A DNA stretch of 59,227 nt from Gracilariopsis chorda (lineage: Eukaryota > Rhodophyta > Florideophyceae > Gracilariales > Gracilariaceae): NCBI GenBank assembly GCA_003194525.1, contig NBIV01000333.1, positions 1 through 59,227 on the forward strand, read 5' to 3'. The notes beneath the pieces were generated by a model. That model did no database searches and was not told where the DNA came from. It saw only the letters and a list, made by a program, of their open reading frames with translations. The first letter of the stretch is position 1; each line of letters starts with the position of its first letter. A program made the position numbers and the translations under genes. This document shows, in pieces, positions 1,792 to 55,801 of the stretch.

Positions 1792-2127
1792 GTCAGGATC
1801 CTGGACCGTGGCACACACACCTGATATAGGTTAGCGCTTAACGCTCCATAGCTTGTGGTAAACGACTTCCTTCTTCTATATCCGTATGTCCGGACTCTTC
1901 TTTTTCTTATTCATAGCATCTTCATGCTGGACCGCTAGGCGGTATTCTTCATTAAACCGTTACTTCGGTCGGACCGCTAGGCGGTGTGACGTCCAATGAC
2001 CATTGGTTTCCCTATCCATTCCATTACTTCGTGTAACCTTCTGTAGCCAGATCTCTTCCTGTGTCCTCTTCTCTTCGGAGACTTCTCTTCCGTCTTCGGA
2101 ATCTTCTGCATAGTGCAGTGTATCGTC
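1792..2127. repeat. Non-coding gap with two copies of a small palindromic 15-mer
   Basis: No gene is visible between the end of the plus-strand frame and the chromodomain reading frame. The 15-mer GGACCGCTAGGCGGT occurs at 1929-1943 and again at 1971-1985. Each copy contains the palindrome ACCGC-TAG-GCGGT. I found no gypsy LTR here matching the LTR end at the other side of the element. Confidence 0.5.
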
Positions 2128-2853
2128 CTACCCAACCTGGGCCATGTCCAAAGTGGATGGGAGTGGGAACCGCGTCCGGCGGTGGTAGGTTATCACCTTG
2201 GAACGAGGAAGGTGCTGAATGGGCTCCCATGTGTCCTCTTCTGGGGGGTATCCGTACCATCGGATTTGGTAAAACCACACTCCTTTGGAGTCCAGAACAT
2301 GATCCACGATGTGGTCAACGACAAACTCCTGGTCGTACGTAGCCGGCTCCTGACCCGTCATGGCAGGGCTTAAGGGGAGAACCCTGTGAGGGGACTTGCC
2401 TGAAATTGGCGCAACCCTGCGGGCAAACTCAGTTTTCCTCGACGCTGCGAGTGCTGGGACTTGATACCGCATTGCGGTCTTTCCGCTTCCTAATCCTGTC
2501 CTTGTGGGGGGGGCCTTCCGTTCTAACCGGATTCCCCTATTGACTCGCAGCTCGCGAGCTCTTCTCCCACGCGACCCGTGCAACTCTGGTGAGTTTGACC
2601 GTTCACGGTGAGGGAGGCGGTTCACTACGGTTCCGACGCCAGGAGGCGGATTGCCATGCATCACACACTGTGATTGGCTGGCCGCTGGCGGCAAGTGTCG
2701 CGCGCGGTCTTTCCACGACGCGGGTCTTGACTGTACTCCTGACGCCGGCCGGCGGTATGTACGTGTACACCTTTCCAGGGTTTGGAATTTCGGGCTTCGT
2801 CCGCGTGACAGTGGCGTCACAGTGTCTATTTGTGGGGCTCTGCGGTAACGCAC
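2128..2853 (-). pseudogene. C-terminal chromodomain of gypsy copy 1
   Basis: The last quarter of this open stretch is a chromodomain. The string FYQIRWYGYPPEEDTWEP sits after an I-V-D-H-V-L-D lead-in, which is the usual chromo core with its aromatic cage positions and the W-E-P helix start. In chromoviruses this module lies after the integrase and is thought to guide integration to modified chromatin. The N-terminal part of the stretch (about 2853-2360) is low in recognisable features and is probably out of frame with the true protein: the integrase tail in 2912-3868 uses another frame. At least one indel therefore separates the two. The stretch ends with TAA in the presumed 3' untranslated region. 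Confidence 0.8.
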
Positions 2854-2911
2854 GCAGTGTCAACCACACTCTCCGTGTCCGTGGTTGCTTTTCAGCTCAC
2901 CACGAAACTGG

Positions 2912-3868
2912 TTATGACCGAGGTTGTATGTGCTCCGTGCTCGGAGATATCATTCGCCACATTAGTGACCACACCGAGTCCGGTTCACTACTTCCTCCTT
3001 CGCTACCCAGCGACTCGCTCGACAGGAGTGCATCCGGGTCCGCGGAGACGGCCTTCTCGCTTCGCGGTGCGTTCAACTCCTCCCTGCTCCGGGGGTGCTC
3101 ATCCGACGATGCCGTATTCCCGATGCGGGCTCGTCCACTGTTCCCAACCTCCTCCCGTGCCGGGCTTACCACGCGTTCCGTGACGGCAGTACCCTTGCTC
3201 TGAAGGGCCTCGGTTAGCGCAGAGTGCGGCGCGAGGGAACTCGCTCGCGAAGCCGTATGAAACGGGACACCGTCCGACGCCGGAGCTTCCTTCCGCGATG
3301 GCGCGATCGATTCCCGTCCCTCCCCCTCCTTAGGTGAGAGGACGGTGGGTTCAGGCTGAAGGACCTCCGCGGGCGGAGTAACGGTTAGGCGTTTGGGGTC
3401 AAGTGTGCGTTGCACGATACGCGCGGCGCGCCCAACCGGTTGATCGGCAATCGGAAGATCCGAGAGTCCCCGTTCCGGGTGCGGTAAGACGGGTGGGCGG
3501 GACGGAAGCAGATTATCCGTTGGCGTAGTTACGAAGTCATCCTCCGGGATTGTCACGAGTGGTGATGAGCCCTCAGCGGGCGCAGGCGCGTGGGCTACGC
3601 GGTCGCGTGAGACGCGTTCGAACTGGTTATCGATGTCCAGTACGACTGTGTCGTCGGCGACGGAAACCACCCGATAGGGTCCATTCACTATCGGTGACAA
3701 CTTGTGGCGCTTCTCCTTTTCGGGATTATAATATTCCTTTCGCAGGAAGACAGAATCCCCTTCCGAGACCAGGGGTATCGGGGTACGAATCTTCGCGTCG
3801 AAGTTCTGTTTGTATGCCTCCTGGGCTGTTCCCATAGCCTTTCGGGCGGTAGGGACCATGTTCTTCAA
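2912..3868 (-). pseudogene. Integrase C-terminal region of gypsy copy 1
   Basis: The first 100 or so residues are the beta-rich C-terminal domain of a Ty3/gypsy integrase (A-Y-K-Q-N-F-D, then G-D-S-V-F-L-R-K, then N-G-P-Y-R-V-V-S). They are followed by a long Pro/Ser/Glu-rich linker that leads towards the chromodomain. The stretch is in the same frame as the main pol frame above it. A frame change within the integrase core is undone here by a 16-bp tandem duplication at 3870-3901, so the domain is readable although the path to it is broken. The first codon is not a true start: this is an internal piece of pol. Confidence 0.8.
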
Positions 3869-6616
3869 TCATTCCTTACAGGAACCATTCCTTACAGGAA
3901 TCTCGATATAACCTTGGTGAAGGGTACCCCGAGACGTTCGGTTGCGTTTCAATAGCCATGGGTGGCGGAATCCGAGACAGGACCAGCTCAAATGGAGCGA
4001 GGGTCGTGACCCGGTGTACCTGGGTGTTATACGCGTACGTAATAGCGTCCGTGTACAAGTCCTATTCCATGGGGTGATCCGCGACATACGCGCGCAGTGC
4101 GTTGAGCATAGTACGATTGAATCGTTCCACTTGTCCGTTACACTGCGAGTGGTAGGTGGTAGTAAACATATTCTTGATTCCCAAGATTCTACATACGTCC
4201 TGAAAGAACTTTGAGGTAAATTGAGATCCGTGTCGGAGAGTAGGTGTACCGGCGGGCCGTAAGTAAAGACCCAGTGGGTTACGAACGCACGCGCAACCAC
4301 GTCCGCGGTAATCCGTTTAAGCGGTACTGTTCTCACCAACTTTGAGAAGCGGTCAGTAATGACGAGAAGATACTTGTAACCACGTTTGGTTTTGACAAGC
4401 TCGCCCAAGATATCAATAGCGACATATTCGAGTGGCGCCCGTGCCGGGAATAGTGTTAACTTCTTCGAGTACTTCCGAAGTTTCACATTATTCTTCGCAC
4501 ATTCCACGCACGAGCGGCGAACTGCATAGCAGTCAAATGCCATAGCAGGCCAATAGAAGTCCCTGCGAAGGGTCAGGTATAGTTTCCTCCCGCCGGGATG
4601 TGCACCCAACTTCGCGTAATGCGATAGATGCAAGACGCGCTGCTGCAGCGTGTGAGGTACAACGATCTGTGGGGCCCGTGTCAGCAACCTGACTAGGTAG
4701 CCTCGATCGTTCACCGCAAAGGGTATCTGTGCGCCCCCGTTAAGACGGGCACGAATCTGGGCACAGAAAGGATCCTGCTGTTGTTCACGGATCATTTCCT
4801 CAGGGGATATGGGAACAACCTGGTCATCCGGAGGATCCGTAGGGTTTGCAGCCAGAATATCGTCACAGATGTCATCCCCATTCACGTCTGGGTCGTCTTC
4901 TTCCGTTCCCTCCGGGGATTGTGCCATGAAACATGGTATTTCCAGATCGTCGACCGGTTCGGTTTCCGCTGATGTTCCTAAGCGCGATAGGGCGTCAGCC
5001 TGAGTATTCAGGGATCCCTTCTTGTAGAGGACATCAAATGTAAATTCCGAGAGTCGGAGACGCCAACGCATGAGGCGGCCCGACGGTTCTCGAATTTCGA
5101 GTAGCCAACGGAGAGCCGAGTGATCGGTGTGAACCTTGAAATGGTTACCCATAAGGTATGGGCGAAGCGTTGCCAACGCCCAAACAACAGCAAGACACTC
5201 CTTCTCGGACACCGAGTAGTTGCGCTCGTGAACGTTCAACGAACGTGACCAATATCCGATCGGATGTCTTTCTCCTTCTTCCGTGACTTGAAACAACGCA
5301 CAACCCACCTGGTGGGCACTTGAGTCAGTATCCACTTCGAAGGGTAAGTCCGGGTGCGGTAAGGCCAGAACTGGCGGGGACGTTACAGCGTCGACAAGAG
5401 ACGAGAATGCTGACGACTCAGCCTCGTCAAAGACGTCCAGTTCGGTGGGTTGTCCTTTCCGGAGGAGTGCGTTAAGCGGTGCTGACAAGTCGGCGAAGTT
5501 CGGGACGAATCGGCGATATACATTGCAAAGTCCTAGGAAGGATCGAAGCTCCGTTTGATTAGTCGGATGTTTCGCCTCTCGAAGTGATTTCACTCTTGCT
5601 TCATCGATTGAAAGCTGTCCGGGGCGGATGATGTGCCCCAGATATTTTACCGAATCGGCGCAGAACTCACACTTTCCCAGCTTCAGGGTGATGCCCGCGT
5701 TGCGGAGCACTGTCAAGACTTCCCGGACATGGGACAGGTGATCGTCCAAGTTATTGGAGAACACTATAATGTCGTCCAAGTATACCAGACAGCTGGTCCA
5801 TTTGAACCTCGCCAAGAGGATATCGATCGCCCGTTGGAATGTAGCTGGGGCATTCGTTAGTCCAAACGGCATTCGCTTAAAGCGATATAGTCCTTGATGG
5901 CACACAAACGCCGTCTTATCACGATCTTCTTTCCTAATAGGGACCTGCCAGTATCCCGAATTGGCATCAAGGGTAGTGAACACCGTTGCCCTCCCCAGGG
6001 AGTCAATGTACTCTTCTTCCATTCGTGGAATCGGATAGACGTCCTTGACAGTAACCGCATTCAGGCGGCGGTAATCCACAAAGAAACGCCATGATCCATC
6101 GGCTTTCGGAACAAGGACAACAGGAGAAGCCCAAGGGGATTGTGCTACTTCGATAACTCCAGCTCGCCGCATCTTCTCCACCTGAGATTTCTCTTCCCCC
6201 CTTGCTTTAGGGCCTGCCCGATACGGGTGCTGTGCAATAGGCCGTGTATCCGGCAACAAATCAATCCGATGTTCGGTTACCCCTATCGTCCCCAGGGAAC
6301 CGTCCCACATGGCGGTAAAGTCCCTGAGCATGTCACGAAACTTCTCACGATGAGATTCATTAATGTGATCCAGGTCCAACTTTCCCAAAGCCTGTTCTGG
6401 GTCTAACGCAGTATCTGCCGATGCTGAAGTCGTGCTCTTCTGAGCTTCTTCGACAGTCGAATCTGAACTTTCCCGGGCGGGATCCAACGGAACGAACGGG
6501 ACCTCCTCCCCCTCCTTAGGGTCTTGTATTCCGAGAACGTCGGATATCGGAATCTTTGTAGGAAGGATAGCCAACGGATGCGGAAGCATGTTGCCCCGGA
6601 CCTGGTTTTTAACCAA
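3869..6616 (-). pseudogene. pol: Pol of gypsy copy 1: RT, RNase H, integrase
   Basis: This 915-codon stretch holds the RT palm with F-V-D-Y-R-R-L-N, the L-D-A-N-S-G-Y-W box and the catalytic Y-L-D-D at about residues 279-282. RNase H follows with F-E-V-D-T-D-S-S and a distal D-A-L-S-R-L. The integrase has the H-H-C-C zinc region around R-R-S-C-V-E-C-A-K-N-N and the first catalytic Asp in V-A-I-D-I-L-G-E. Just after L-L-S-D (about 4230) the frame shifts: the genuine continuation, with the integrase Glu region and N-T-Q-V-H, lies in the next frame (4058-3876). Upstream homology (V-L-V-A-N-L-G) also continues in this frame beyond the listed start, so the first codon is not a real start. The gene is dead through these shifts. 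Confidence 0.9.
3870..3901. repeat. 16-bp tandem duplication inside the integrase frame
   Basis: The unit CATTCCTTACAGGAAC is present twice in a row, with one mismatch near the end of the second unit. Sixteen is not a multiple of three, so the duplication moves the integrase reading frame. It joins the frame used at 4058-3876 to the one used at 3868-2912. Confidence 0.8.
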
Positions 6617-6653
6617 CCACTGAGTGGTAGTTCCGAGGTTAGCAACGAGAACC

Positions 6654-7226
6654 TTAAAGGGTTTGTCCGGCTCGACGGATACGATCCCATTTTGCTAATG
6701 CGAGACGGCGCTGTTCGTAGAGCGAGGGGAGTGGTTGAAAAACCTGCAACCCGTGGTGTTTGGATGTTACTGAGACCCACACCTGAGATTCCTTCGGGAT
6801 CGAAACTGGTTCCGCGACGCGAATCTTCGTAGATGCTCGATCCACATTGGACGCTTCCTGAGCAGCAGGTAAAGGTACCCGTTTACGGGAGGCGTGTCGC
6901 AAGGGCTTCCGTCCAATCGGGATGGTCGAACCATTGGCCAATTCCACGGATCTGGAGCGAGGGCGGATAGCTTCCACGAAGCGGTCACAGAAATCACAAC
7001 CGAGGATGACCGGTGCAGCAAGAGAATCGCATACGATGAAGTCCAACTTCACCACGTAGGTGCCTAGTCTTAGTACCAGAGGAATTGTTCCAAGAGTCTG
7101 GAGCGGGTTGTTATTAGCGTCCGCCATATCCAGACTTGGACCAATGCGAATGCATTTCGGCATGGCGGGTGGAATAATCCCGATATTGATCAGGTTCGGA
7201 GCGGCACCTGTATCCAGGACAGATAA
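6654..7226 (-). pseudogene. Retropepsin-like protease region of gypsy copy 1
   Basis: The catalytic triplet is in L-D-T-G-A-A-P-N at about 7210-7187, directly after a TAG at 7227-7229, and the flap-side I-L-G-C-D-F sequence follows near 6999. Copy 2 at 59170 has the same L-D-T-G-A-G-P-N with Phe codons at the position of the TAG, so the stop is a mutation and not a shared recoding signal. The reading frame ends at 6654. Homology to the beginning of RT continues in another frame (N-G-I-V-S-V-E-P-D-K-P-F), so a frameshift separates protease from RT. Confidence 0.8.
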
Positions 7227-7487
7227 CTAACGAACCATGAACTGGTTAGAGAGACCGAGGTCACTATAAACTTTATAGTTCCTCTTGGCCATTACCAAAA
7301 CTCGATCCGGGATGCCGAGGTTACGGGACCGTATCCACGGACGACGCAGAGCCACTAAGTGGTCCGAGCTCACGTCTTCTTGAGCCAGTTTCCTCGTAAG
7401 GATTTTGGCAGGGGAGCGAAGCGGTGGCGCCTCAGGCGTATTCAACTTCGGCTTGGAAGACACCCCTCCCGTGGGGGAGACTCCCAA
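7227..7487 (-). pseudogene. Gag-protease linker of gypsy copy 1
   Basis: A short open stretch in the same frame as the protease. Its end (V-L-V-M-A-K-R-N-Y-K-V-Y-S-D-L-G-L) matches the sequence just before the protease of copy 2 (about 59090-59150). It is the link between the nucleocapsid and the protease, closed by the TAG at 7227. It has no independent function that I can see. Confidence 0.7.
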
Positions 7488-7489
7488 GA

Positions 7490-8533
7490 TTAGTTTTTCG
7501 GGACCGAATCGACCGCTGGGTGCGGCTGAGCCCGTTCCGAAAGGTTAGGGTTGTTACCGTTCGCGGTTTTCGCGGCTTCTCGAGCTTGAGCATTGTGGAC
7601 CGCAGCCTTTGCGTCTTCATACGAATTACTCGGGACACGAGCCTTATGCTCCGGTGGGAGATTCTCATAATTTCCCACGATCTTCCACATCTCGCGAATG
7701 GGGAGGGTACACTGCGACGCAGTATGACCTTCAAAGTAACAAATGTAGCAAATCAGCGGGGCTGAACGTGTTCCGGTGGCGTGGGACATCATTCCGCGGT
7801 GCTGAGGGTGTTGTGGTTGGAATGCTAGTTGCTTCGGGTTGGACCATCCCGGGCGGGAGTGTCTTGTGGCGCTCGACGCGTAGGCTAGCGGGGGTGGGGG
7901 AACCCGACCGGGGTTTGCGTAAAAGGCCGGATCTACCACGGGGGGTGTAACCGTGGACGGCAGTTCCGAGGTTGCCAACGACTGTTCAAGACTGCCAAGA
8001 TACTGGATGTTATCCGCAAATCCGGAAGGTGGTCCCGGGTTAGGGAGAGATGCCGAGGAAGCCTCGTTCTCGACGAAGAGAGCCTTCGACGACCGACGCC
8101 TCGGGTCTCTCGCTCTGAGGGTGTCACCCTCAGCCTGCGCGTACTGGACCAGTTCCAGATACGTCGCCTTGCGCTTCTCTTCCCTGTAGCGGGACACCAG
8201 TGCCCTGATACCAGGATCTAAACCATCCACCAGCATGGAGCAACGCTCAAAAGCGGTAAACACATTTCCACAACGATGAAACGCTTTATTCAAGCGAGTT
8301 GAATACGACGTTTCCGTTTCACCAGGCTTCTGTTTCGTATCGCGAACCGCCACGATGGCTTGACTGATTGCAGTTCCCGTCGCGTACGACCTGAGCAGGT
8401 AGTGTACAGCCTCGGGCCAGCACGTAACACCTCCTTCTGAGGCCCTGGACGAACCCCTGACCGAGTTGTACTGATCTTCAGCCATTCCTGAAAGAAAGTA
8501 GGGCAACGCAACGTATGCCTGCGCCTCACTCAT
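7490..8533 (-). pseudogene. gag: Gag, C-terminal half, with CCHC knuckle (gypsy copy 1)
   Basis: The capsid-like segment (R-S-Y-A-T-G-T-A-I..., E-T-E-T-S-Y-S-T-R-L-N-K-A-F-H-R) is followed by a Pro-rich stretch. A zinc knuckle CYICYFEGHTASQC then fits C-x2-C-x4-H-x4-C. Copy 2 has CHLCYAHGHTSPQC at the same place. The stretch is in the same frame as the N-terminal half (8549-9532), separated only by a TAA and five sense codons, so both are one gag gene interrupted by a nonsense codon. At the TAA position copy 2 has a sense codon. Confidence 0.85.
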
Positions 8534-8548
8534 TTCGAGTACGTCTGA

Positions 8549-9532
8549 TTACTGCACAAAGCGGGCCAGAAAATCCAACAAGAGGATCGGATCTTCACCA
8601 GAGAACTTCTGCTTAAGCATCGTCACATTCATACGACGTATGAGATCCTTCACCCGACCGGTGTCCCTCGAACTTCGAGTGCCCGAAGAGTCTTCCAATG
8701 GGTAATAACGATAGGACAACAGCTTCCTGTAAAGGGGATTCGTCGGTTTCAATTCCTTCAAGCCGAAATGACGGCGACCTTTCTCCCGCGCACGGATTGC
8801 TCCATGGGAGGTGTAGGTAGCCCTCGAACTAGGTTCTTCTCCACGACGGCGGCCTCTCCCTTCACGCGATGATCTCGAAGACGAGCTACTCGAACTTGTT
8901 TCCGAGTCGAAACTTGACGAAACTTCATAACGATGAACTCTCTTTCCAGGGTGACGGGGGAGGTGACTGGAGCGGTGTTGGGTTGAGATGACCTTCACTT
9001 CCTCCTGTCTCGGAGCGTTCAGGGGTTCTCTGAGCAACGCTTCCAGCGTGTCCATACGTCCGGTTACCCCCATCATATGGGTTTTAACTTCCTCCACGAA
9101 CTCCCGATATCCTTCTACGAAGGCAGCCGGAGTACCCAGACACTCCAGAATGGAATTCACATCAGCTCTCAGGAGACGAATATCTCCCGAATAATCCCGA
9201 GCCAGGGAGTCACTCCATCGCCGTTCCAACTCGGTAACTTGCTGCGAGAGGGAGGCGTGGGCCACATTGGCAATGTCGATTCTCGACTCGAGGAGATGGT
9301 ACTTAGGCGACCCGGGTCTCAGGGGGACAGCCGACGGCGTTTCGACCACCGGAGGTGGCGTAGTGGCCACAGCTGTCACGGCTCGAGGCACCGAGGTTGC
9401 CAATGGGATTCCTTGGGATTCCAGACCGACGGCATTGGTAAGTAGTTGTTCCGGAACGGACCTTCGTGATCTCGCCGCGGCGGCGTTCCGTTGCAGACCA
9501 TTCCTGGGGGAACTCGGAGCTGTGGGCAGCAT
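8549..9532 (-). pseudogene. gag: Gag, N-terminal half (gypsy copy 1)
   Basis: The stretch starts at an ATG after the leader. It is Ala/Ser/Thr-rich at first, then has a helical part (L-E-S-R-I-D-I-A-N-V...), a Ser-Arg stretch, and a conserved block G-R-R-H-F-G-L-K-E-L-K-P-T that is nearly identical in copy 2 (G-R-R-H-H-G-L-P-E-L-K-P-T). It ends in L-D-F-L-A-R-F-V-Q followed by TAA. Family knowledge says it forms the structural shell of the retrotransposon particle. It is an inactive copy because of the stop. Confidence 0.85.
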
Positions 9533-44451: not shown

Positions 44452-45605
44452 TCAAGTAAAGCTTAGATATTCCTCCGAAGAGGGTGGAGGCACTTTAAAC
44501 GACTGCACCGTCTGCTCCGATTTGTACAAACAAGCACGTAAGTTTAAAAGGATTGCAGACGCTTTGTATAGTAAGCCGACGAGTATCTTTCGCACTTTCA
44601 AATTACGGGCAAAGTCAACACTTGCCAAATACTGCTTCAGGTCCTTGTAACTATGCTCAACACACACTCTAAGAGCGCTCATATCACGATTAACCTTTCT
44701 TTTTACCTCTTTTGCACCCTGTTCTTCAAACGGGCATTGCATCCAAGCCCTTAGCAGAAACGCAGTGTCCCCATACAGGAAGAATTGAATCTGGTTAACC
44801 AATAAAGAAGATTCTTACAATGTTTCCCATCCCCTCTCTCTCAGTAATGTTAAATAATGTCGCCTACCCATCTCAGGCCCGTAGAGCGCAAACACCAACC
44901 CGTCAGGAGTAGAGATAGTCAAGAAAAGCAAACAATGCATGCACTTATGCCCTGAATAGCATGAGCGTTGTAGCGAGAGATGTCCACCTGATCTTCGGAT
45001 TCTTATTTTTGTGCAGTCTATGAAGCCAACGCACTTATCATAAGGCGCGCCCATTCTCTCGATCGCATTTGCATACTGTGAAGCTCGTGGTTGAATAATT
45101 GACGGATGAATTTTGAGAACGTATCCAAAACGCTTGGTTAACAGGTCACGTGTTTCCCAAAATACCTCACCTAAATTGGAAGAATGCATTCCGAAAAACT
45201 TCTCAACATCTGTCCATCGAATTGGGGAAGCCTTTCTGTGACAAAAATGGATATAGCAGTTACCGAGTCACAAGTGTAACGATTACTTTCTTTGGCGTGC
45301 GACCAGGGAAGAAAGTGTACTATGTAAAATAGATGTGTCTTTGTGAAACGAAAGTTCGTTAAACCTTCTTGATCCGAAAAGATGTTAATGTTGAAGGTGA
45401 CTGCTTTGAATTCTCGAGTGCGATGCATTAACCGTTTTGTTTCATGTTGCACTTTTGTTATTTGTCCCGCGGCATGAAGGATAAAAAGATCCTCCAGTTC
45501 GAAAAAAAGCGCAAAGTAGAGACGTTGTTGCCACAGAAGCCGTCTTCTATGACATTGAGTAAGGAAGTGGTCTGTGATTCTCATTAAGGTGAGGTTGGAA
45601 CGCAA
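44452..45605 (-). pseudogene. HARBI1-type (DDE_4) nuclease of H1
   Basis: On the minus strand it probably starts at the ATG at 45584 (M-R-I-T-D-H-F-L). The N-terminal part has N-R-Y-T-C-D-S-V-T-A-I. The nuclease part has G-F-I-D-C-T-K-I-R-I (first Asp), Y-G-P-E-M-G-R-R-H, F-L-Y-G-D-T-A-F (second Asp) and C-V-E-H-S-Y-K-D-L-K (Glu). A single-base shift in a C run near 45228 and a TAA at 44815-44817 break it. All other parts are in order. It lies inside the right TIR of H1 and points to the interior, opposite to the SANT-like gene. Confidence 0.85.
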
Positions 45606-45808: not shown

Positions 45809-45815
45809 ACTGTTA

Positions 45816-45854
45816 GCGGCGTTCCATGAGTTGACGAAACTCTGAACTCGAAAT
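45816..45854 (+). repeat. Left terminal inverted repeat of H2
   Basis: It starts GCGGCGTTCCATGAGTTGAC directly after TTA. The partner is at 54316-54354. Confidence 0.85.
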
Positions 45855-45942
45855 CACAGCTGAATTTAACTGCCAGCTCCTTGAACAGTAATGCTCCTGG
45901 TCAACAACCCCTGTATACCAACCTGATGAGATTGCAAAGGGC

Positions 45943-47796
45943 ATGAAACTCTGTTTGGTTCACGTCTTCTCCACTTGCGGCGACTATGAACCTCACACTC
46001 CCCCGCCCTTATCCACATTTTCCGTACCATACTGCTGCTTGCTTGCCCAACTGCCGCGAACTATACTACTATATCTAGATACACTCCATTCCCGCCAAAA
46101 ACTCTACGAAACCATCAAGGGCCGTCCTAGACTACGACAACATGAAGATAGAAAACTTTTTGTACTCTTGTATCTCCTACACTTATGGGACGTGGAGCAT
46201 TCCAATAAAATTATCCGAACAGTCATTTGTCGTCTACCATTTTTCCCAATTCAACACATTGGAAGCATTTCTGACTTTGCTTTCAAACGAATGTACCGCG
46301 TCTCAACGTTTCAGTTCAGGTTACTTTCGTCGAGTTGGCGGCAGCAGTTGCAAAGAAGGCAACTCAAAATTTGTCATATAGCTGCTGAAGTAAGCATCGA
46401 AGTGATACTTTTCGTCACTACACGAATCCTGGCCGGAGGAAGCCATTTGGACATTGGATGGCCGTACGGCATAGGAACTACAACGCTCTATTCTTTATTT
46501 GAGGAAACACTGTTCGCTCTCAAAAACTGTCTACCTCCAATACCCTTCCCACAATCCGAACGAGAATGCAAAGTGAATGCTAACATGTTCTGCACACTGC
46601 GAAATAGTCCTCTTTGCGGCGTTATTGCAGCATTAGATGGAATTGCCATCGAAGTTCAGAAACCTCATATCCGTGAGACTCCTGATCCACGCAAGTTCTA
46701 CAATCGAAACGGATTTTTTGCTTTATGCGTACAGGCCGCCGTACAGGGAGACTATCAGTTTTGTTTTGTTTCAGCCACGCATTCCGGAGGCACTCATGAT
46801 GCGACAGCTTTTTCCGCAACGAAGCTTTACCAACTGCTGAAAGGTTGTATTCTACCGGACTGGGCCGCAGTCGTCGCTGATGATGCGTACAGCAACGAGG
46901 GTATAGTCCTTTCACCGTACGCTGGAAAGCGGTTGTCGCAGAAGGAAGACACTTTTAACGCATACCATTCCTCTTGTCGCACCATAGTGGAACAGGCTTT
47001 TGGTATGCTTGTCAGCAGATTCGGAATCTTTTGGTCTGCAGTAAGGTATCCCTTGAAAAAAGTTCCTCTGATAATCTTAGTGGCTTGCCAGCTGCACAAT
47101 TTCATTATTGATAATGCAGATGATACTCTGTTCGACTACATCCCAAGCCACAAAGAAAATCATGTACACGGGTCCCCGGCTGTCCATTTTCAAGACGCGC
47201 TTCATATGGAACGTGACAGCTGGATGTCCCGAAATCAGTTTTGTCAATCTTCAACGCTTCGCGATAATGTTGCTGAACAACTGCACAGAATGCGGTTCTC
47301 ACCACGAAGAACCAGCGAGAGAGCAGCGTGCAGGGAGAGAGCGTGCTTCCATTTGCACGACAGAAGCATGATGCTGCTCAAACCAAGCACGTTTACGAAC
47401 GCCTCCGGTCCCGCAGTACGCGCCGCTCTTAAGTACATGGACGCTCTTGTCGCAGCTCTGCTGGTTGTGACAGACGATATGTCGCTTGATCTCGGAGACA
47501 TTAGACTACGAACGAAAGGCAGCGCCGGTGGGCATAATGGGCTGAAGAGTACACAACAATGTATTGGCTGTATGAACTACGCTAGGCTACGAATTGGTGT
47601 TGGTTCTCCGAGTGGTAGAGCGGAAGATTTGGCGGACTTCGTTCTTGGATCCTTTTCGTGATTAGAGAAGCGGGTTTTGGAAAAAGTGGAATGGGATGTG
47701 ATGGAAACCGTTGACCACTGGGACGACGAAGCAAGCATCGAAAAAGTTCAGACTCAGATTGCGTTGGCGAAGCAAGGAAGACGAAATCATTGTTGA
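45943..47796 (+). CDS. HARBI1-type (DDE_4) nuclease of H2, nearly intact
   Basis: From the ATG at 45943 an open frame of 572 codons reaches a TGA at 47659-47661. In the same frame 44 further sense codons of similar character follow to the next TGA (47794-47796), so the first TGA may be a late nonsense change. The DDE core is present: L-D-G-I-A-I-E-V (Asp about 232), V-A-D-D-A-Y-S-N-E-G (Asp about 313/314) and I-V-E-Q-A-F-G-M-L (Glu about 350). H-S-G-G-T-H-D-A-T lies between the first two. The upstream third is helical and should hold the DNA-binding part. This enzyme would cut and rejoin the H2 termini. Length is larger than the usual 400 residues or so. Confidence 0.88.
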
Positions 47797-47967
47797 CTAC
47801 GAGTGGCTTTTGTCACTGCTTGAGTAGATATGTGTTATTATTCAACGTTAAAACTGAAGGGGGACGCTCTAAATCAATACTTGAGGCGTTATTGTGTCAG
47901 CGACATAAACTCTTCAGAGACAAGGATAAAAAAATGAAACGCGGGTTAGAGGAATTGTACCAGCGCT
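47797..47967. other. Short gap between nuclease and GalT remnant
   Basis: No gene is visible. The join between element sequence and captured sequence must lie here. Confidence 0.5.
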
Positions 47968-48910
47968 TCAAGAGTTTTTCTTCTTGGCATGGTTGAAGTG
48001 AATTTCCGAACAGTCGCGAAGTCGGGCTGCAGCATGCTCCGCTGTAAGATCTCTCTGCGACTCGCCAAGCATCTTAAATCTAACCATGAAATTTCTAACG
48101 GTAGCGCTTCGAAGAAGTGGGGGGTAAAAGTGCATATTGAAATGCGCATATTCGTTCTTACTTGGATCAGTACCATTGTAGGTCGGCGCTTGATGAATAC
48201 CCATGGAGTACGGGAACAAAGTGGTGAAAAGTTTGTCATAGCATGTGCAAACGCGAGGGTAGATGTCAGCCAAATCCAGTTGCATGGCGTCGGTAAAGTT
48301 GACGAGGCAGTGTGCTCTCATTTTGCTGATGACCATGACCTCAATGGGCCAAGTAGCCCAGAATGGGACGACGGCGAGGAATGTCTCATTCTGACATACG
48401 ATACTTTCCTTTGTTTCCATTTCGAGTTTGACATAGTCCTCCAACATTTGGGTTCCCTTCTTAGTCTCATAGGCTTTGAGATTGGCGAGTGCGATGCGCA
48501 GCTCTTCTGGAACAAACTCAGATGCCCAGGTCTGACCGTGAGGATGAGGATTGGGGCATCACATCATCGGTCCCTTTTTCTAGAATATCTGCACGTGCCC
48601 GATGTAATCGATCTTGGAGAGAGTGTCATACTACTGAACCCAGGCATCAACAACGGCTTTGATCTCCTTGACCGTGATTTCAGTGACAGTTAGGTTGAGC
48701 TTCGAGGAGAAGCAGACAACGCAATATTTTCCACGCACAGCTTTGGCTACGAGAAGATCATTGTTCTCAACGCTGCGCTCGAGTGCCGCCGATCTCCGAA
48801 GCGTAAAGAAAAGCACCCTCACCGTCTGCTTGCCGCCATATGCAGCCAGTAGGACTCCAAAGGCCTCCAAGCCATCGCTACCATTCTCCCGATCTGTAGG
48901 GACTTGAGAT
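47968..48910 (-). pseudogene. galT: Galactose-1-phosphate uridylyltransferase, captured pseudogene
   Basis: On the minus strand one frame holds R-G-K-Y-C-V-V-C-F-S, then the active site N-P-H-P-H-G-Q-T-W with the catalytic His-Pro-His, then W-A-T-W-P-I-E-V, Y-S-M-G-I-H-Q-A-P and NMHFYPPLLRSATVRNFMV. GalT transfers UMP between glucose and galactose 1-phosphate in the Leloir pathway. Three in-frame stops (TAG 48631, TAG near 48586, TGA near 48563) fall at positions normally Gln, Glu and Gly. There is no frameshift and no intron. The first third of the enzyme is missing or not recognisable upstream of 48910. It is inside H2 and runs against the nuclease gene. Confidence 0.88.
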
Positions 48911-49609
48911 AGCGCCTGCCTATTGCGCCTCGCTCCCAGTTGGTGCCCGCGTCACTAGTAGAACCAGTGGATTGTCACCCCAGTGGCTGGATCTCTGCCG
49001 CTACTACCCCCTAGTAGACTACTATCCCAGTTGGCCAAAGGACGTAGTAATCTTCTACACCAGTAAAGCCTGGAAACCATTGTCGAAGACAAAGGTAGAG
49101 CCGTACTTGGGGTTCGCGCATTCAGTACACTGCTGGGTAGTCATCGAGTAAAAAGCCCTCCAATCTCACGCAAAAAACGTACGAAAGAAACAGCAAGAAG
49201 GACTCAGTGAAATGCGCTTGGAGAGAGTGATCTCAGAAAATGTAGAAAACCGAAACTACATGCAAGAGAACAAGTGGTGACAATTTTTATGGCTTAAGCG
49301 CCATCACATCTTCACATGAATACATGTAGATGAAGCAGTTGATCCAGACTTAGAGAATCCCCCTGAAGACCCGAGGAAAACAGACGATGGTTATACAGAA
49401 AATGAGAAAAGTATTTGTTATTGTGGATATTATTACGGCAAGAGAAACAAGATAACGCGAGAACCAGAGGTGTATAGTACTGGAGGCAGATGATCAAAGG
49501 AGGTAGATATGGAAGGTACAAAAGCCGACCATAACCATGCCAGCAATCGACATGGAGGCGGCAAGAACAGGCAAAAGAAACAAAAGCTGAGACTTGGGTA
49601 AGAGGTAAA
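48911..49609. other. Captured or filler sequence without recognisable gene
   Basis: Only short frames are present (for example a 101-codon hydrophobic minus frame at 49617-49312). None shows a motif. Confidence 0.4.
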
Positions 49610-50241
49610 TTAAACAATACGCTGGTAACTTATGGTGCGAGTAGGAGGGGACTCCAAAACTTTCTTCAGACTAACCAGAAATGCACCAAGTCTGGTGACA
49701 ATAATGACAAACCACTTGAGCCAGTTCCACGCCGGTCGATGAGACGCAACCATGTTCGCTCTGGTGCGTACAGTTGTTTCTCCTACTATGTGTGGAACAA
49801 GTTCTCTTGCTTCAGTTTCAGCGTGGACGTATCCATCCACGCATCGCCGCCAAGAGCAGAGACGCGAGCTTCAACAAGGCTCTTGAGCGCAAAATTAACC
49901 TAAAGACGATCGAGCTGGGCCTTGATCCTTTTGCGATACACGGGACAGGGGGGATGTCTCTCATGATCGAATCGTGAGGCGAGACAGGAGGTGCACAACG
50001 TGTGGCCGCACGGTGCTACGCGGGGTATGATGAATTCGGTGAGACATACAGGACAATCCAAGGGTAAGGAGAGATTCAATGCTTGGCGAGGGGTGGGTGG
50101 ATATTGTGGTTTTAGGTCGCTGTTAAAAACGTTGACATTGCGACGAAGACGTCTTCTGGTGCGTCAGGCGCCGAGAGTTGCGCGCAAGGCAAAGCAGCCA
50201 AGTGAAGCCAAGGCGGGCGCTACGGCGTTGCGCTTCCTCAT
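49610..50241 (-). pseudogene. RING-finger E3 ligase with C-terminal membrane segment, captured pseudogene
   Basis: On the minus strand, from the ATG at 50241, the frame runs M-R-K-R-N-A-V-A-P-A, is cut by a TGA at 50164, and continues to a RING: D-C-P-V-C-L-T-E-F, then P-C-G-H-T-L-C-T-S-C, then P-P-C-P-V-Y-R-K-R. The spacing fits C3HC4, but the last zinc Cys is Tyr (TGT to TAT). A TAG follows in L-D-R-L-stop-V-N-F. A frameshift then leads to 49840-49610, which has a membrane helix (W-L-K-W-F-V-I-I-V). The intact protein would be a ubiquitin ligase anchored in a membrane. This copy cannot work. Confidence 0.75.
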
Positions 50242-50567
50242 GATGAAGTGCCACTGGACTTGGGGAAAAAACTCTAATGTCGACAGGGCAGCAGCGGAAA
50301 GCTGTCTGTCAAAGCAAGGCCGCCGCGCCGAGCGCGCTGCACACGGTGGCTGCGTTTTGTCTGCATAGATGATATTACACAGCTCAAAACCCCAGCCCGT
50401 TCTGGTACTGCAGAGGCACTTGGCCATCTTCTATTGGCCAAATCAGCATGACGCATACACGTGTCCTCAGCGCGCTTCCATACCAATGAACTCGAAAGCC
50501 CTTCTTCGTCTTCGTCGTCTTCTTCTTCCGCGGGTCTTTGTTCGTGGGCCCGTCCGCGGTTGGAGAT

Positions 50568-52095
50568 ATGAAGCATTCTAGCACAATAAGCGCAGCTCTC
50601 AGCGTGCTTCTCTCCATCTGCCCATTGCTCCAGTACCGCATCATTCGCCTGCAGCTCCCTGCGGTACATTCAGCCCCCCTCGCAGATGTAATATCGTTTC
50701 TAGCGCCTCTACTCGTCCTGACACTCGGTGCCATTCTGTATCGCAGCCTGCCACCAATGTGTTTCATTCCGCTGGTCATTTGTCCCTCGCTCAGTGCATG
50801 TGCGCTTCCAGTTGTTCAACTGCTTTGCCTGTCCCTGGTAACTGCTCTTGTCATATGCTCCTCCAAAACGGACTTTGTTTGTGCATGCATTACATCACTG
50901 TTCTTGTTCATACTGGATGCTGCCGTACACTGTCATTTATCAAATGTTTGGTTGTTTAAAGTACCCAAAACTACGCTTCCCTCACTAGCATTTGCGATTG
51001 AAATGACGCATTGTGCGATTAGATCTGTAGCTCTAAACACATAGCGTCTTTCACGGGACAAGCGCAATCATCGGAAAAAGAAACCCCTCCCCACATGTAC
51101 AGTTTGGTCATGGTTTTCCTGGCATCACTAATTGTAGAACAGCTCCCCCCATTCATGCCACCACCACCACTTCCTAAACAGTATAACCTCCTTGCACAGT
51201 CTCGTGGTCTGACGGGCTTGTTCAGCGTTGTTGAGAAACGAGGGGAATATGGAATGCTACTTGCGGATCCGTCCGTCTTGGTGGTTATTTCGACACCAAC
51301 AAGTACTACTCGGATTCCGTATTCTTCCAATTCTATGTTCAGGAGGCAGTGCGGCTTGTCGGACAGCGCGAGGAAAACGCAACTGCACTGTGTATTGGTC
51401 TTGGTATTGGAGTTGCTGCGAACGCCCTTTCGAAACATGGCGTCAAAGTAACTAATGTTGTTATCGAGCCGATCGCCGCACTTTACGCCTGCAAGTACTT
51501 CGGGGTCCAGATCCCTGTTCAAGTGGAGGACACCGTGTCATATGTCACAAAACTTCCCATTCATGCTTTTGATTACTTGATTCATGACGTTTTCACGGGG
51601 GGCACAATGCCGTTCGCGCTGTTCTCAGTTCAGATGTTTGAAAATATAAAACCCCTCCTTAAACCAGAAGGCGTGTTGGCTGTCAATTTAGTTGGAGCTA
51701 CGGAGCTCCCACCAACACCTGCGTCACAAGCTTTGTCACTTGTTTCCCAAAGGATGACGAAGGTATTTGGGAAAGTGCGTGCGTTTTCAGATGGTTTAGA
51801 TGCTCGAATGCACAAAATTGTACCGTTCACATCAACAGGAGAAGGCGCTGTGGTGTTCCGGGAACCAGATGAACAGGACTTCCTTGGCTCTTCGATGAGA
51901 CGGACTGCGCTAACCAGCTTTCAAGAGCACGAACTAGGTGAGGACCAGCTAAAGGGGTGCGGTGATTCGTCGAGTGTGGCTTGCGTGATGTACCGGGGAT
52001 TACTCGATATAGCTGAGGCACACCGAAAACTAATGTATAATATTCACCCCAAGCAATCATTTCCTGCTATATTGGCAGCTGAGAAGTGGAATTAA
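50568..52095 (+). pseudogene. Membrane-anchored spermidine-synthase-like protein, captured gene
   Basis: The N-terminal part (ATG 50568 to 51044) is a chain of hydrophobic helices, about five membrane segments. The second part begins near 51095 in another frame (S-R-G-L-T-G-L-F-S-V-V-E). After a further shift near 51270 it runs to TAA 52095: L-G-G-Y-F-D-T, the nucleotide-binding C-I-G-L-G-I-G-V-A, V-I-E-P-I-A-A-L and Y-L-I-H-D-V-F-T-G-G. This is the fold of polyamine aminopropyltransferases and related methyltransferase-like proteins with membrane N-termini. The break at 51044-51095 may be an intron; the one at 51270 is a frameshift. Substrate is unknown. It is in H2, divergent from the RING piece. 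Confidence 0.75.
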
Positions 52096-52379
52096 AGTAC
52101 ACATATCAGACGCAGGTCGCTGCACATTAGGACTCCAGCAAAGCTGAGAAGAGGAGGTTAACGTTGTGTCCATTGTTACGAGTCCCATATGAGCCGTGGG
52201 AACACGACGACGGAACATGTGCTCTAATCGCCGCCTGACAATGCAGGAGAATTTATGTGAACAATGCTCTGCTCGGGTATCTTGATTGAGCTTGGAGCAA
52301 ACTTTCTCGAATGGCGCGGCGGGCGTCGCGAATGCAGGAAATAGATGGTTGTGGCGACGGTGGCACTTCTGCAAGCAGG

Positions 52380-52788
52380 TCATCCACCGGTGCGAAAAGG
52401 TAGGGAAGCCTGGTACTAAGCGAGCGTGCAAGATGTTCCGGGTGACGGAATCGTGAGTGGCATCCTCCAAACGGTGCGGTGGCAGTTCCTCGGAAGCAGC
52501 GGCAGCACACAGAGCGGACATAGACTTAATTCCATTTGAAACGCGTTCTACGACGGCGCAAGCGGAGTCTAGAGCGGCGGCTTTGGTCTCCGGGTCCGGA
52601 GTGGATGAGTCTATGAGGTTTAGTAGAGCGTTTGCGTGGGCCTAGGCGTCGGCGATGTTTGCGTGGAGAAGCGTTGCATCAGGGTCCAGATCGACGTTGG
52701 CGGAGGAGTAGTGTGCTCTGGGGCAGCGTTTATCGGGGAGTGCGGCGGAGATTGAGGCGACTGGTGCGTTGGGTGCGGTGTTTAACCA
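52380..52788 (-). pseudogene. Unidentified captured gene fragment
   Basis: On the minus strand a frame from about 52788 has good protein character (A-S-I-S-A-A-L-P-D-K, L-L-H-A-N-I-A-D-A), a TAG near 52640, then E-T-K-A-A-A-L-D-S-A-C. A frameshift near 52410 leads to L-F-A-P-V-D-D-L-L-A-E-V-P. The local GC content is clearly higher than in the neighbouring transposition gene. It directly follows the end of that gene. I do not recognise the family. Confidence 0.45.
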
Positions 52789-54182
52789 TCCGGATTGCGC
52801 ATCAAACGTTCTAAACCTCCATGCAGCACCTTCTTCTCCTGTTCACATGAAATATTTGTTAGCATGTTCTTAACTTTCAGAATAGCCTCCAACGTAGCCT
52901 TGGTGCTGCGAGCATGGGCTTCAACCGCTTCAAACCTAACTTTATCACGCTCCACCTTCTCCATATCCCGCACGAAATGTTCGTCACGCGGCGTAAGCGC
53001 AGCATCCAAAGATTCCAATCCCGAAGAAGCAATGCGACTATTGTCAGGTCTTGCGCGTTTTGATCTAAACTGTGACACTACGCAAGATCCAAAGCCATAC
53101 TTTGACCCTTCTAAACCAACTCCAGCTTCCTGTTTGAAATCAATTCGCAGCGCTCGTGTACAATGCGGTTCCATAATTGGATGTAAACAAAGAAAACAAA
53201 AAGCATACATAATATAGATCTTACCGTCTGCGTAGCTAACAAAAGCTTCATGATCTCCCTGACCTGATGCTTCGTACCTTGTTACACATGTTCCGTATAG
53301 AATTTTGAACTCCGCAAACTTGCGTTTGAGAATACCACCATCTCATAAGTGACTACGAATTGCCGGATTGATTGAATATATATCATCGCGCGTCACACCT
53401 CCACCTACTACAGGGATCGGTTCCGGCCGAAAATCGGGATCGTTGAATAGTGGGGCAATTGCTTCGGACGATGGTTCTTCCCTTTGCTTGTCGAGCTCTA
53501 CTCTTTTCATGCAATCCATGAGCGTTTCTCGAACAAAAACCATCCGAGCATCCACTAAAACATGCAGTAGTCGACAGAACTCTACCGCCTCAAACGGCGG
53601 TCTACGCTGAAGTTGAGACACCGAAGCGGAATTTTCAGCACCAAGCAGAGGTTCTCCGATAACGATTTCACCATCAACGAAAATAGGTATATCGCCCTTG
53701 ACCCATATCAATTCCTCATGCTCGCAAGCATTGCGCTTGATTCGTATAGTTGCGTTTCGTAGTCCATTAACAAATGCGCAATCCAAGCTACTAGTGTCTG
53801 CAAACCCATCAATTATCTTACGAATTGTCGATAAGCTTACCTTTCGTTGTACCATTTTCGTTGCTAGAACTTTGCGCTTAGTAGCAAGTTCTGCGTTTTG
53901 TGCGCCTAAAATATTCAAACATCTGAGGGAAAGCTTGCAGTGGACGTTATCAAGGTGGCATTGGTCTAGAATTTGGATGCCATGCTCTGAACTTTTCGGT
54001 ATCGTTATCGAATTTTCTGCCATGTCGGTTTCCTTTCCAGTAGTTGCTGCCTTGTCATCCCCCACTTGATTATTCGGGTCTGTATTGCCGTCATCTTGAG
54101 CGTCAGTTGTAGGTAAGCGCGCGTGCGCTGGTGGGGAAAACGGGTTCATGTTCCTGTATGTCACGAAGAACGTGGCATTCAC
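52782..54182 (-). pseudogene. Second protein of H2, novel family, one in-frame TGA
   Basis: One frame runs from the ATG at 54182 through a TGA at 53343-53345 to the stop at 52782, about 466 codons. The N-terminal 80 residues are polar and look disordered. A helical part (L-N-I-L-G-A-Q-N-A-E-L) follows, then the most conserved part, E-F-C-R-L-L-H-V-L-V-D-A-R-M, I-A-P-L-F-N-D and I-L-K-R-K-F-A-E-F-K-I-L-Y-G-T-C. Next come Y-A-F-C-F-L and a coiled-coil tail. The H3 homologue has Arg (CGT) at the TGA site, so CGA to TGA is likely. I know no family with these features. Its place inside the TIR, facing the nuclease, matches that of the Harbinger partner protein, but no Myb signature is visible. Confidence 0.75.
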
Positions 54183-54573
54183 TATGGAAGACCATTCCGA
54201 ACACGGTTTCCGTTTTGTGGGGACTGCAGGCGCTGGTAGGTTGCAGCTGGAAGCGGAAACTGGTAACGAACGTATGCAATGTATGATATTCTGATTGGGT
54301 ATCTACTGATTACCGATTTCGAGTTCAGAGTTTCGTAAACTCATGGAACGCCCCTTAGGGGCGTTCTACGAGTTGATGTGTCTGATACGCAAAAACAAGA
54401 AAGTTAGTCTAGACCAATAGAAAGCATCCACGTCTCAGAAGATTATTTCCAAGTCTTCATCTTGTCGGCAGGGCGAAGATTTCCGCCGACAAGGAAACAA
54501 TGACCATTGCATTGCATATACCCTCTGAAACCGAAAGAACTCCAGTTGTGTTCTTCCTGTCCATAAGAGGGCA
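54183..54573. other. Junction of H2 and H3 with palindromic TIR-TTA-TIR
   Basis: GGAACGCCCC TTA GGGGCGTTC (54345-54366) joins the right terminus of H2 to the left terminus of H3 through a single TTA. The stretches on either side, between the terminus and the gene start, are non-coding. Confidence 0.8.
54316..54354 (-). repeat. Right terminal inverted repeat of H2
   Basis: On the minus strand it reads GGGGCGTTCCATGAGTTTAC and on. It is followed on the plus strand by TTA. Confidence 0.85.
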
Positions 54574-55801
54574 ATGGATGGCTCACAAGCCGAATATCAC
54601 AACTCGAACGCTTGGTCACAATCTGAACACAACCAAGACAATGTTTCGAGCCACAAAGACGGTAATGTCACCCCAAACAACGACCCTCCCCATGCCAATC
54701 ACACCGTACATCCCACTATCCGTCCTACAACAGTTTCTGAAGCATTTCAAATGCTCATTGATGCTTCCTTCGACAAAAAACAATGCAAGCAAGCACTAAA
54801 AGCAATGAAAATTGTTGGAGCTCACAACGCGAAGCTCGATACAAAGCAAAAGGTGATAGCTCAGAAATTGGTACAGAAACATATAAAACTTAAGAAAATG
54901 AACGATGAACGATTTGATAGCATCCAATGACGCTAATGACAGCAGTATTACCGTTTTTTGTCGACTTCCTTCGAAAACAGTAAGAATACGACGAGCGGAA
55001 GACAACTTTGAGGTCATAGAATACATACAAGGAGACGTATCAACTACTGTTGATGGAGAACATGTGATGAATAGCTCAAATATAAGTGAATCACAGCCCA
55101 CATTGAGCATATCAGTGGATGTAAGGCGTCCTGCTTTTGAAGCGGCCGAATTCTGTAGACTACTCCATGTTCTTGCGGACACAAGAATGACAGGTACGCG
55201 ACAGAAGTTAATGCAATGCTACGATCGGGAGCAACTTGATCAAGAGATAACCGATCCGTGGACAGAAGAAATTGCTCCTCTTTTTAATGATTGCCAGTTT
55301 AAACCAAGTGCAAATACACTGTTATCGGGAGGTGTGGCACTGAGTGATATTTTCATGATTAATCCTGCCCTAAGACCTCATTTACGTGATGGAGGGGTCT
55401 TGAAAAGAAAGTTTGGGGAATTCAAGAGTTTATATGGCACTTGTATCCCTCGATACGAGGCTTCTGGATAAGGAGATCCTGAAGATTTTGCAACATTTGC
55501 TAATGGGAAGTCATATATTGTGTATGCGTTTTGCTTTTTAAAACAACACCCGATTCTCCAGCCATTCGCAACAAGGGCATTGGATAGTGAGGCACAAAGG
55601 GAGGAAGGAGTTGGACGTAGATTTGGTGGATATGGTTTTGGGGGTCCAGAGTTTCGAGCGCACAACAAAAGAAGAAAGTCAAACAATCAGGAAATTAATG
55701 TAGTGGGAGTGGATAGTCTCGTGTCGGCATTGCGGCCTCTTGATGATAGCATTCCGAGAGAGCTACAAGTTGGGGAGAGAGATAAGATGCAATTTGAGTG
55801 A
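54358..55801 (+). mobile_element. H3: truncated relative of H2
   Basis: It starts with GGGGCGTTCTACGAGTTGAT, a variant of the H2 terminus, and contains only the second-protein gene in outward-to-inward orientation. The nuclease end is missing. The right border is near 55801, where homology to the H2 gene stops. No matching right terminus could be confirmed. Confidence 0.55.
54574..55801 (+). pseudogene. Homologue of the H2 second protein in H3
   Basis: From the ATG at 54574 the frame is closed by a shift at about 54898-54911, where ATGAACG is repeated (7-bp duplication). The true frame continues from 54905 to TAA 55469-55471, where the H2 copy has CAG (Gln), and further to TGA 55801. Shared blocks with H2 are E-F-C-R-L-L-H-V-L-A-D-T-R-M, I-A-P-L-F-N-D, I-N-P-A-L-R-P-H-L, L-K-R-K-F-G-E-F-K and R-Y-E-A-S-G. 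The last 40 or so residues of the H2 protein are absent. Identity by eye is about half in the core, so the two copies parted long ago and the family was under selection between. Confidence 0.8.

Follow-up and report, generated by a model that had tools for sequence, protein, structure and literature searches.

What allows a DNA transposon to hold pieces of several host genes next to its own transposase gene, and does such cargo travel with it? This question is raised by a 59,227-nucleotide stretch of the red alga Gracilariopsis chorda (contig NBIV01000333.1; hereafter, the window), in which a single 8.54-kb PIF/Harbinger insertion occupies positions 45816-54354. Between its transposase gene and a second gene, called gene 2, lies host DNA copied out of two intact donor loci, and a shared set of cargo genes was found between the same ends at eight independent loci. 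We consider it highly probable that the element took up copies of host DNA between its two convergent genes and moved as a unit thereafter, and that the cargo was replaced stepwise. Contigs of the 91.3-Mb genome are designated Cn below, C333 being the contig of the window.

Structure of the insertion

The element is bounded by 41-nt inverted ends that are 95% complementary (45815-45855 and 54315-54355), within which the left terminal inverted repeat (TIR) occupies 45816-45855 on the plus strand and the right TIR 54315-54354 on the minus strand. A target-site duplication, TTA, is found on both sides (45813-45815 and 54355-54357), and the right one doubles as the flank of an abutting Harbinger fragment. 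A preliminary description of the window had proposed one element with near-matching inverted ends and TTA on either side, and this was borne out; the arrangement that would have contradicted it, in which the termini belong to two separate short elements, was not the one found. A 20-base end pattern, allowing up to 3 mismatches, occurs three times in the window (shuffle mean, 0.01), namely at both element ends and at the start of the abutting fragment. In the whole genome, a 22-base end pattern with at most 2 mismatches gave 73 matches, and its reversed control gave none.

Three features place the element in the PIF/Harbinger superfamily. The TIRs fall within the range of 25-50 bp given for that superfamily in the part of the source consulted (PMC9179366). 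The duplications are of the 3-bp TTA/TAA kind, as TTA/TTA or TAA/TAA flanks were found in 10 of 10 aligned copies, C2b and C287 included, representing nine independent insertions. Finally, the transposase carries a DDE_Tnp_4 domain. It is encoded at one end of the element and gene 2 at the other, the two genes being convergent with the cargo between them.

Origin of the cargo

The cargo consists of three blocks of host DNA. The first (47312-49115) is a 93% identical copy of C237:27978-26432. It holds the 3' piece of a peptidyl-tRNA hydrolase (PTH) gene (47312-47796, plus strand), which starts from about codon 140 of 301 and whose first part is in frame with the transposase in the window copy, as well as a GalT piece (47968-49115, minus strand), which lacks about the first 67 codons and has three stops. 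The second block (49114-52298) is a copy of C27:44664-47860 at 94% identity. Both of its genes, a RING gene (approximately 49613-50360, minus strand; two stops, one frameshift) and a membrane/spermidine-synthase-like gene (50568-52095, plus strand; one stop, two frameshifts), span the whole coding sequence of the donor. The third block (52294-52777, minus strand) is a 94% identical copy of C237:22098-21614 and represents a piece of an unnamed host gene. In C107 coordinates, the corresponding blocks are 1507-3053 (C237:27978-26432), 3052-6246 (C27:44664-47856), and 6245-6715 (C237:22080-21610).

The genes at the donor loci have open reading frames (ORFs): GalT (386 aa) and PTH (301 aa) at C237, and the spermidine-synthase-like (538 aa) and RING (273 aa) genes at C27. 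The ORF of the unnamed gene covers C237:21486-22598 (371 codons), and the part of it that was compared with Pfam gave no match. Identity between element and donor is 92.7-93.9% for the first C237 block, 93.1-94.9% for the C27 block, and 90.7-93.6% for the last C237 block (copies of the window's cargo type, full-length pieces). In the window itself, Pfam matches were obtained for GalT (E 3.5e-55) and RING (E 1.2e-8), and the spermidine-synthase-like domain was weak (E 5.9e-4, below the Pfam cut-off). Among 8000 candidates scored, the donor synthase protein shares 62% identity with a protein from Agarophyton chilense and 58% with one from Gracilaria domingensis, both of which are annotated with a spermidine-synthase-like domain.

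Elsewhere in the genome, the matches to PTH and GalT other than the donors (15 of 16 and 16 of 17, respectively) all lie on contigs carrying element ends, and synthase DNA occurs at 10 places, nine of them inside elements and the tenth being the donor. With open donor genes mapped at C237 and C27, the host origin proposed in the preliminary description is established. Its gene list was right for GalT, RING, and the spermidine-synthase-like gene but omitted the PTH piece, the actual content being three C237 genes in part and two C27 genes in full. Likewise, a transposase inside one end and a second gene inside the other are both present as described, but 52294-52777 in the right part is host DNA; its assignment to the transposon was rejected, as it matches C237. 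Host gene pieces thus lie between TIRs, as they do in Pack-TYPE elements.

The GalT piece, and with it the first block, is broken by a short repeat of 283 bp (48777-49059), and 24 bp of donor sequence are gone at the insertion point. The first ~184 bp of this insert have at least 26 other genomic matches, with 40 of 285 candidates scored, which suggests a repeat of high copy number; no clear inverted ends were found in it.

Cargo and transposition genes moved together

The preliminary description had suggested that the cargo and the transposition genes moved together, and that further copies with the same termini and TTA flanks should be sought. We found the GalT, RING, and spermidine-synthase-like genes in the same order and between the same ends at eight independent loci: C333 (window), C2, C70, C107, C127, C142, the C338 group, and C363. 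The C338 group comprises C338, C846, C71, C485, C663, and C671, which were counted as one locus because they have one left flank in common. Over aligned blocks, the copies on C2, C70, C107, C127, C142, C338, C846, and C363 are 90-91.5% identical to the window copy. The full copies of the window's cargo type, window excluded, are 92.6-96.4% identical to one another, C338 and C846 reaching 99.8%.

Empty sites were sought by joining the flanks with a single TTA/TAA for eight sites, a set that lies apart from the window site, and searching the genome. This check, also proposed in the preliminary description, succeeded for three of the eight sites and, with 40 of 229 candidates scored, not for the other five. 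The related empty sites of C2a, C127, and C107 (best identities 98%, 95%, and 88%, respectively) have a single TTA/TAA and are spanned as one piece; all three lie in other repeat copies. We conclude that the cargo and the transposition genes moved as one unit and that past insertion has taken place. It should be noted that the best 40 of 417 and the best 40 of 69 candidates were scored in further cargo searches; family sizes are consequently lower bounds, and absences are weak.

Some copies have a history of their own. The flank shared by the six contigs of the C338 group points to a duplicated segment or to unmerged haplotypes. The C363 copy breaks off at element position 7111, and a matching right end on C11 begins at 7107; the two are probably one copy split in two, and the break looks like that left by an insertion that duplicated 5 bp. 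The C142 copy contains a 2.6-kb insert (element coordinates 6375-8961) that is bordered by TA and includes two ORFs, of 258 and 295 aa. Judging by eye, we take this insert to be Tc1/pogo-like; its 258-aa ORF had no match in Pfam.

Cargo states and stepwise replacement

Relatives of the window copy carry different cargo inside the same ends, and the donor loci across the family number four. C61 holds the hydrolase piece and GalT up to C237:26968, followed by C237 from 25568 (helicase region) to the right end. The donor piece of the helicase region gave a weak DEAD/DEAH match (0.0035, below cut-off), and an HA2 match is present in C287; the label 'helicase' also draws on known motifs. In C287 and C125, the transposase is followed by 217 bp of family sequence, also found in C93, and then by C237 from 25217; C287 has additional inserted DNA, repetitive in this genome. 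C2b has only 237 bp of hydrolase DNA (C237:27978-27742), then DNA of C236 and C29, then C237:21758-21614. Its C236/C29 DNA gave a weak Tic110-like match (2e-5, below its cut-off) and an adaptor-complex medium-subunit domain (2.8e-27). A shorter derivative, C186, combines a transposase cut at ~703 with a bit of GalT, a piece in common with the C287 cargo, and the C236 piece of C2b.

Because the 217 bp are present in C287, C125, and C93, only the branch of C61, C107, C2b, and the window lacks them. The possibility that the left border common to C287 and the C107 group was one site taking two cargoes independently was considered and rejected. In a tree of the left ends, the window copy stands between a group of C61, C125, C93, and C287 and the remaining copies, and the split between the window copy with these four and the rest has a support of 0.999. 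C2b falls among the rest, with a support of no more than 0.30 for its exact sister, and C27 DNA is carried by all others there and by the window copy. If the root lies on the side of C61, C125, C93, and C287, then C2b lost the C27 block. With the root so assumed, we infer that C237 DNA was acquired first and C27 DNA next, and that C236/C29 DNA came later in C2b.

How the cargo was acquired

The capture was a copying of DNA, since the donors are still in place, and it did not go through mRNA, since intergenic DNA and genes of both strands are included. In the scenario that we favor, the 6.4 kb of C237:27978-21610 would have entered between the transposase gene and gene 2, although no copy holding this whole segment was seen. 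The inner part would next have been exchanged for 3.2 kb of C27 in the ancestor that the window copy shares with its close relatives, and exchanged again, in the descendant C2b, for the C236 and C29 blocks. Such exchanges may have followed excision or an internal break, with gap repair proceeding from the element ends, switching to unrelated templates, and rejoining with 1-2 shared bases.

Several points weigh against this scenario. The bases shared at three joints number 1, 2, and 1, which is compatible with end joining or template switching but near chance and therefore no proof of the latter, and neither an excision footprint nor a repair intermediate was seen. The tree on which the order of events depends is unrooted, and the reading of C125, C61, C93, and the donors C236 and C29 covered parts of them or search hits only. 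In addition, no empty site turned up for C2b, C70, C338, C287, and C142 in the search that scored 40 of 229 candidates.

A bolder version of gap repair makes the element a cargo-swapping platform: through its homology, a donor piece already present would guide later gap repair to the locus it came from, and the block would thereby be enlarged or exchanged with the ends and transposition genes left in place. We advance this only tentatively and think it rather unlikely. If it held, C125 and C287 (C237 from 25217), on the one hand, and C61, C107, and the window copy (from 27978), on the other, could represent two visits to one donor, a suggestion that we regard as equally speculative.

The cargo could also have been taken up by composite capture, in which two Harbinger insertions lie on either side of a stretch of host DNA and their outermost ends are mobilized with everything between them, as has been proposed for plant Pack-TYPE elements in the parts of the literature consulted (PMC8903248; PMC13317346). 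This could account for the first large C237 block. However, it predicts Harbinger ends by the donors, and the best match to the ends in the donor flanks was 17 of 27 (410 and 922 bases scanned at C237, 864 and 1302 at C27, with no shuffle control). The donors also remain in place, and the later replacements inside fixed ends would need extra steps. We therefore consider composite capture improbable and retain copying into the element followed by stepwise replacement.

Fate of the captured genes

Once captured, the genes have traveled as decaying passengers. Among eight copies, the GalT piece has a stop at codon 92 in seven, at codon 110 in six, and at codon 284 in six. Seven of the eight copies have a RING stop at codon 91, and seven have lost 7 bases of the synthase gene; the window copy has neither of these lesions but others of its own. 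Stops or frameshifts break the RING gene in all eight copies, and likewise the synthase gene, and every copy has private lesions in some gene. The lesions common to seven copies must be older than the spread of those copies, and the window branch decayed separately. 

The ratio of nonsynonymous to synonymous substitutions (dN/dS) was calculated pairwise over the eight copies, with 95% intervals from a bootstrap over codons; the copy pairs are not independent, which the bootstrap ignores. It was 0.55 (0.42-0.73) for the transposase, 0.82 (0.63-1.11) for gene 2, 1.03 (0.67-1.75) for the hydrolase, 0.63 (0.45-0.95) for GalT, 0.87 (0.63-1.29) for RING, and 0.90 (0.69-1.20) for the synthase. Two of these observations count against the favored scenario. 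The codon-92 stop of GalT is missing in C127 and needs a reversion or conversion there. Furthermore, the dead GalT piece has a ratio nearly as low as that of the transposase, with overlapping intervals, so that the transposase value taken alone is weak evidence of selection. No sign of use of the cargo was seen in these sequences.

Two kinds of use were nevertheless weighed. At the RNA level, cargo transcripts, some of them antisense to the donors, could be a source of small RNAs by which the donors are silenced or the element is protected. The blocks retain ~91-95% identity to the donors, the cargo genes lie in both orientations, and an antisense role was suggested for a captured PPR sequence in grapevine in the portion of that report consulted (PMC2528002), but decay at a neutral rate does not need such a role, and we judge it quite unlikely. 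Even less credible is that selection maintains the captured genes for a benefit to the host or to the element. The capture of whole RING and spermidine-synthase-like genes and the retention of the same gene set at eight loci might suggest so, but both genes are broken in every copy, the PTH and GalT pieces have no starts, and the dN/dS values of the synthase, RING, and PTH genes are those given above. Finally, segmental duplication or assembly artefact instead of transposition has a negligible probability and is refuted for the family as a whole: the common left flank of the C338 group does indicate that locus duplication occurs or that haplotypes are separate, but the other loci have different flanks and their own TTA/TAA repeats, three of them with empty sites.

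Transposition genes and neighboring elements

The transposase gene (45943-47311, plus strand) is open in the window copy, with a DDE_Tnp_4 match in Pfam of E 2.6e-25 to 3.2e-25. Database relatives are up to 55% identical and have the same domain, the closest one labeled with an organism being from Chondrus crispus (37%). In the window's branch, the final few codons are replaced by captured DNA, judging from a comparison with C125, and in the window copy a 589-aa ORF continues from the transposase into the PTH piece. A transposase-hydrolase fusion protein was nonetheless rejected, as the frames differ in other copies (C70, C2a, C61, and C2b among those examined), where the transposase ends ~9 codons past the joint with the hydrolase piece. 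The transposase is free of stops and frameshifts in three of the eight copies (window, C2a, and C70).

Gene 2 (52782-54149, minus strand) has one in-frame stop in the window copy (53343-53345) and is free of stops and frameshifts only in C338, one of the seven copies in which it is covered fully or nearly so. In the remaining copy, C363, it is covered for 47 of 455 codons, and the transposase has a frameshift. Both genes are intact in none of the eight copies, which does not make for an autonomous element, and the preliminary description of the window copy as 'self-equipped' does not hold in the strict sense. Transposase and gene 2 products were instead probably supplied in trans by family members with intact versions.

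In the PIF/Harbinger superfamily, the second gene is expected to encode a Myb/SANT-like domain. A 319-aa part of gene 2 is 43% identical to gene 2 of a neighboring 3.75-kb Harbinger family, and a putative DNA-binding role is suggested by its position only. This assignment is weakened by the results of direct searches: gene 2 had no accepted Pfam match, the 319-aa part found no relative in a database search, and a structure model of the gene 2 product of the neighboring family, built from a two-sequence alignment, was too poor for use (pLDDT 35).

The abutting fragment (54355-55798; 1.4 kb) is one end of an element of this different Harbinger family, which measures 3.75 kb when whole. It is 92 and 94% identical to two 3.75-kb elements of the same genome, and its remainder was not found within the window. 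Directly left of the insertion, a minus-strand ORF (44815-45267) is transposase-like, with a DDE_Tnp_4 match (2e-5) just below the Pfam cut-off. Genome-wide, at least 150 DDE_Tnp_4 matches are above the cut-off (150 of 792 candidates scored), and Harbinger-type transposases are therefore abundant in this genome.

Comparison with known systems

The value of this family is that a red-algal TIR transposon lineage that keeps its transposase gene presents an ordered series of gene captures, for which a single genome holds both the donors and several states of the cargo. This allows a test of the route of DNA pick-up, that is, gap repair against the model of two neighboring elements. Harbinger elements of at least 8 kb with multigene cargo could still spread even though that cargo is dead. 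It also carries a warning for annotation, as most of the GalT, PTH, and synthase matches in this genome are transposon passengers.

Within the same genome, the 3.75-kb family (C130, C23) resembles the element in its similar ends, its convergent transposase and gene 2, and protein similarity that extends up to the transposase end, but its transposase differs at ~40% of residues; its middle part measures ~0.9 kb. For red algae, the sources consulted tabulate MULE elements with various inserts of a potentially host-derived kind (PMC6446971) and mention 1181 Chondrus crispus entries in Repbase (PMC4455052).

The preliminary description had seen a candidate for a new large cargo-carrying Harbinger class. 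The kind is already known, because Harbinger/PIF elements with a transposase and captured host sequence were published in 2008, namely Pifvine-3 (PMC2528002) and Turmoil-1 (PMC2572040), to go by the sections consulted of both papers. Pifvine-3 of grapevine (Benjak et al. 2008) has up to 3.5 kb of extra sequence beside its ORF1 and transposase regions, mostly matching host exons and introns. Like the present element, it is a PIF with host sequence that is in some cases common to several copies. In those sections, however, the host DNA of Pifvine-3 is placed in a long 5' region, whereas here the two genes enclose it, and the present cargo differs further in drawing on two loci at once (the family as a whole on four), in including whole neighboring genes, and in being replaced stepwise. 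Turmoil-1 of C. elegans (Sela et al. 2008) is likewise a Harbinger element with a transposase and two captured coding pieces, reported not to be under purifying selection; unlike here, the pieces, one of them 131 bp, lie in long terminal repeats, and one complete copy was reported in the text consulted.

Pack-TYPE and Pack-PIF elements, as presented in the part of the source consulted (PMC8903248), are also TIR elements spreading pieces of host genes, with multi-donor elements reported. By definition, Pack-PIF elements are non-autonomous and have no transposase, so the present element, which has one, falls outside them; the C186 derivative, whose transposase is truncated, comes close. Searches of an open-access collection, a scope beyond which lie Repbase and most subscription papers, turned up no earlier report of serially replaced multigene Harbinger cargo. 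What is unusual in this family, compared with these systems, is the combination of multigene blocks, their placement between the two transposition genes, and a serial replacement of which several states survive.

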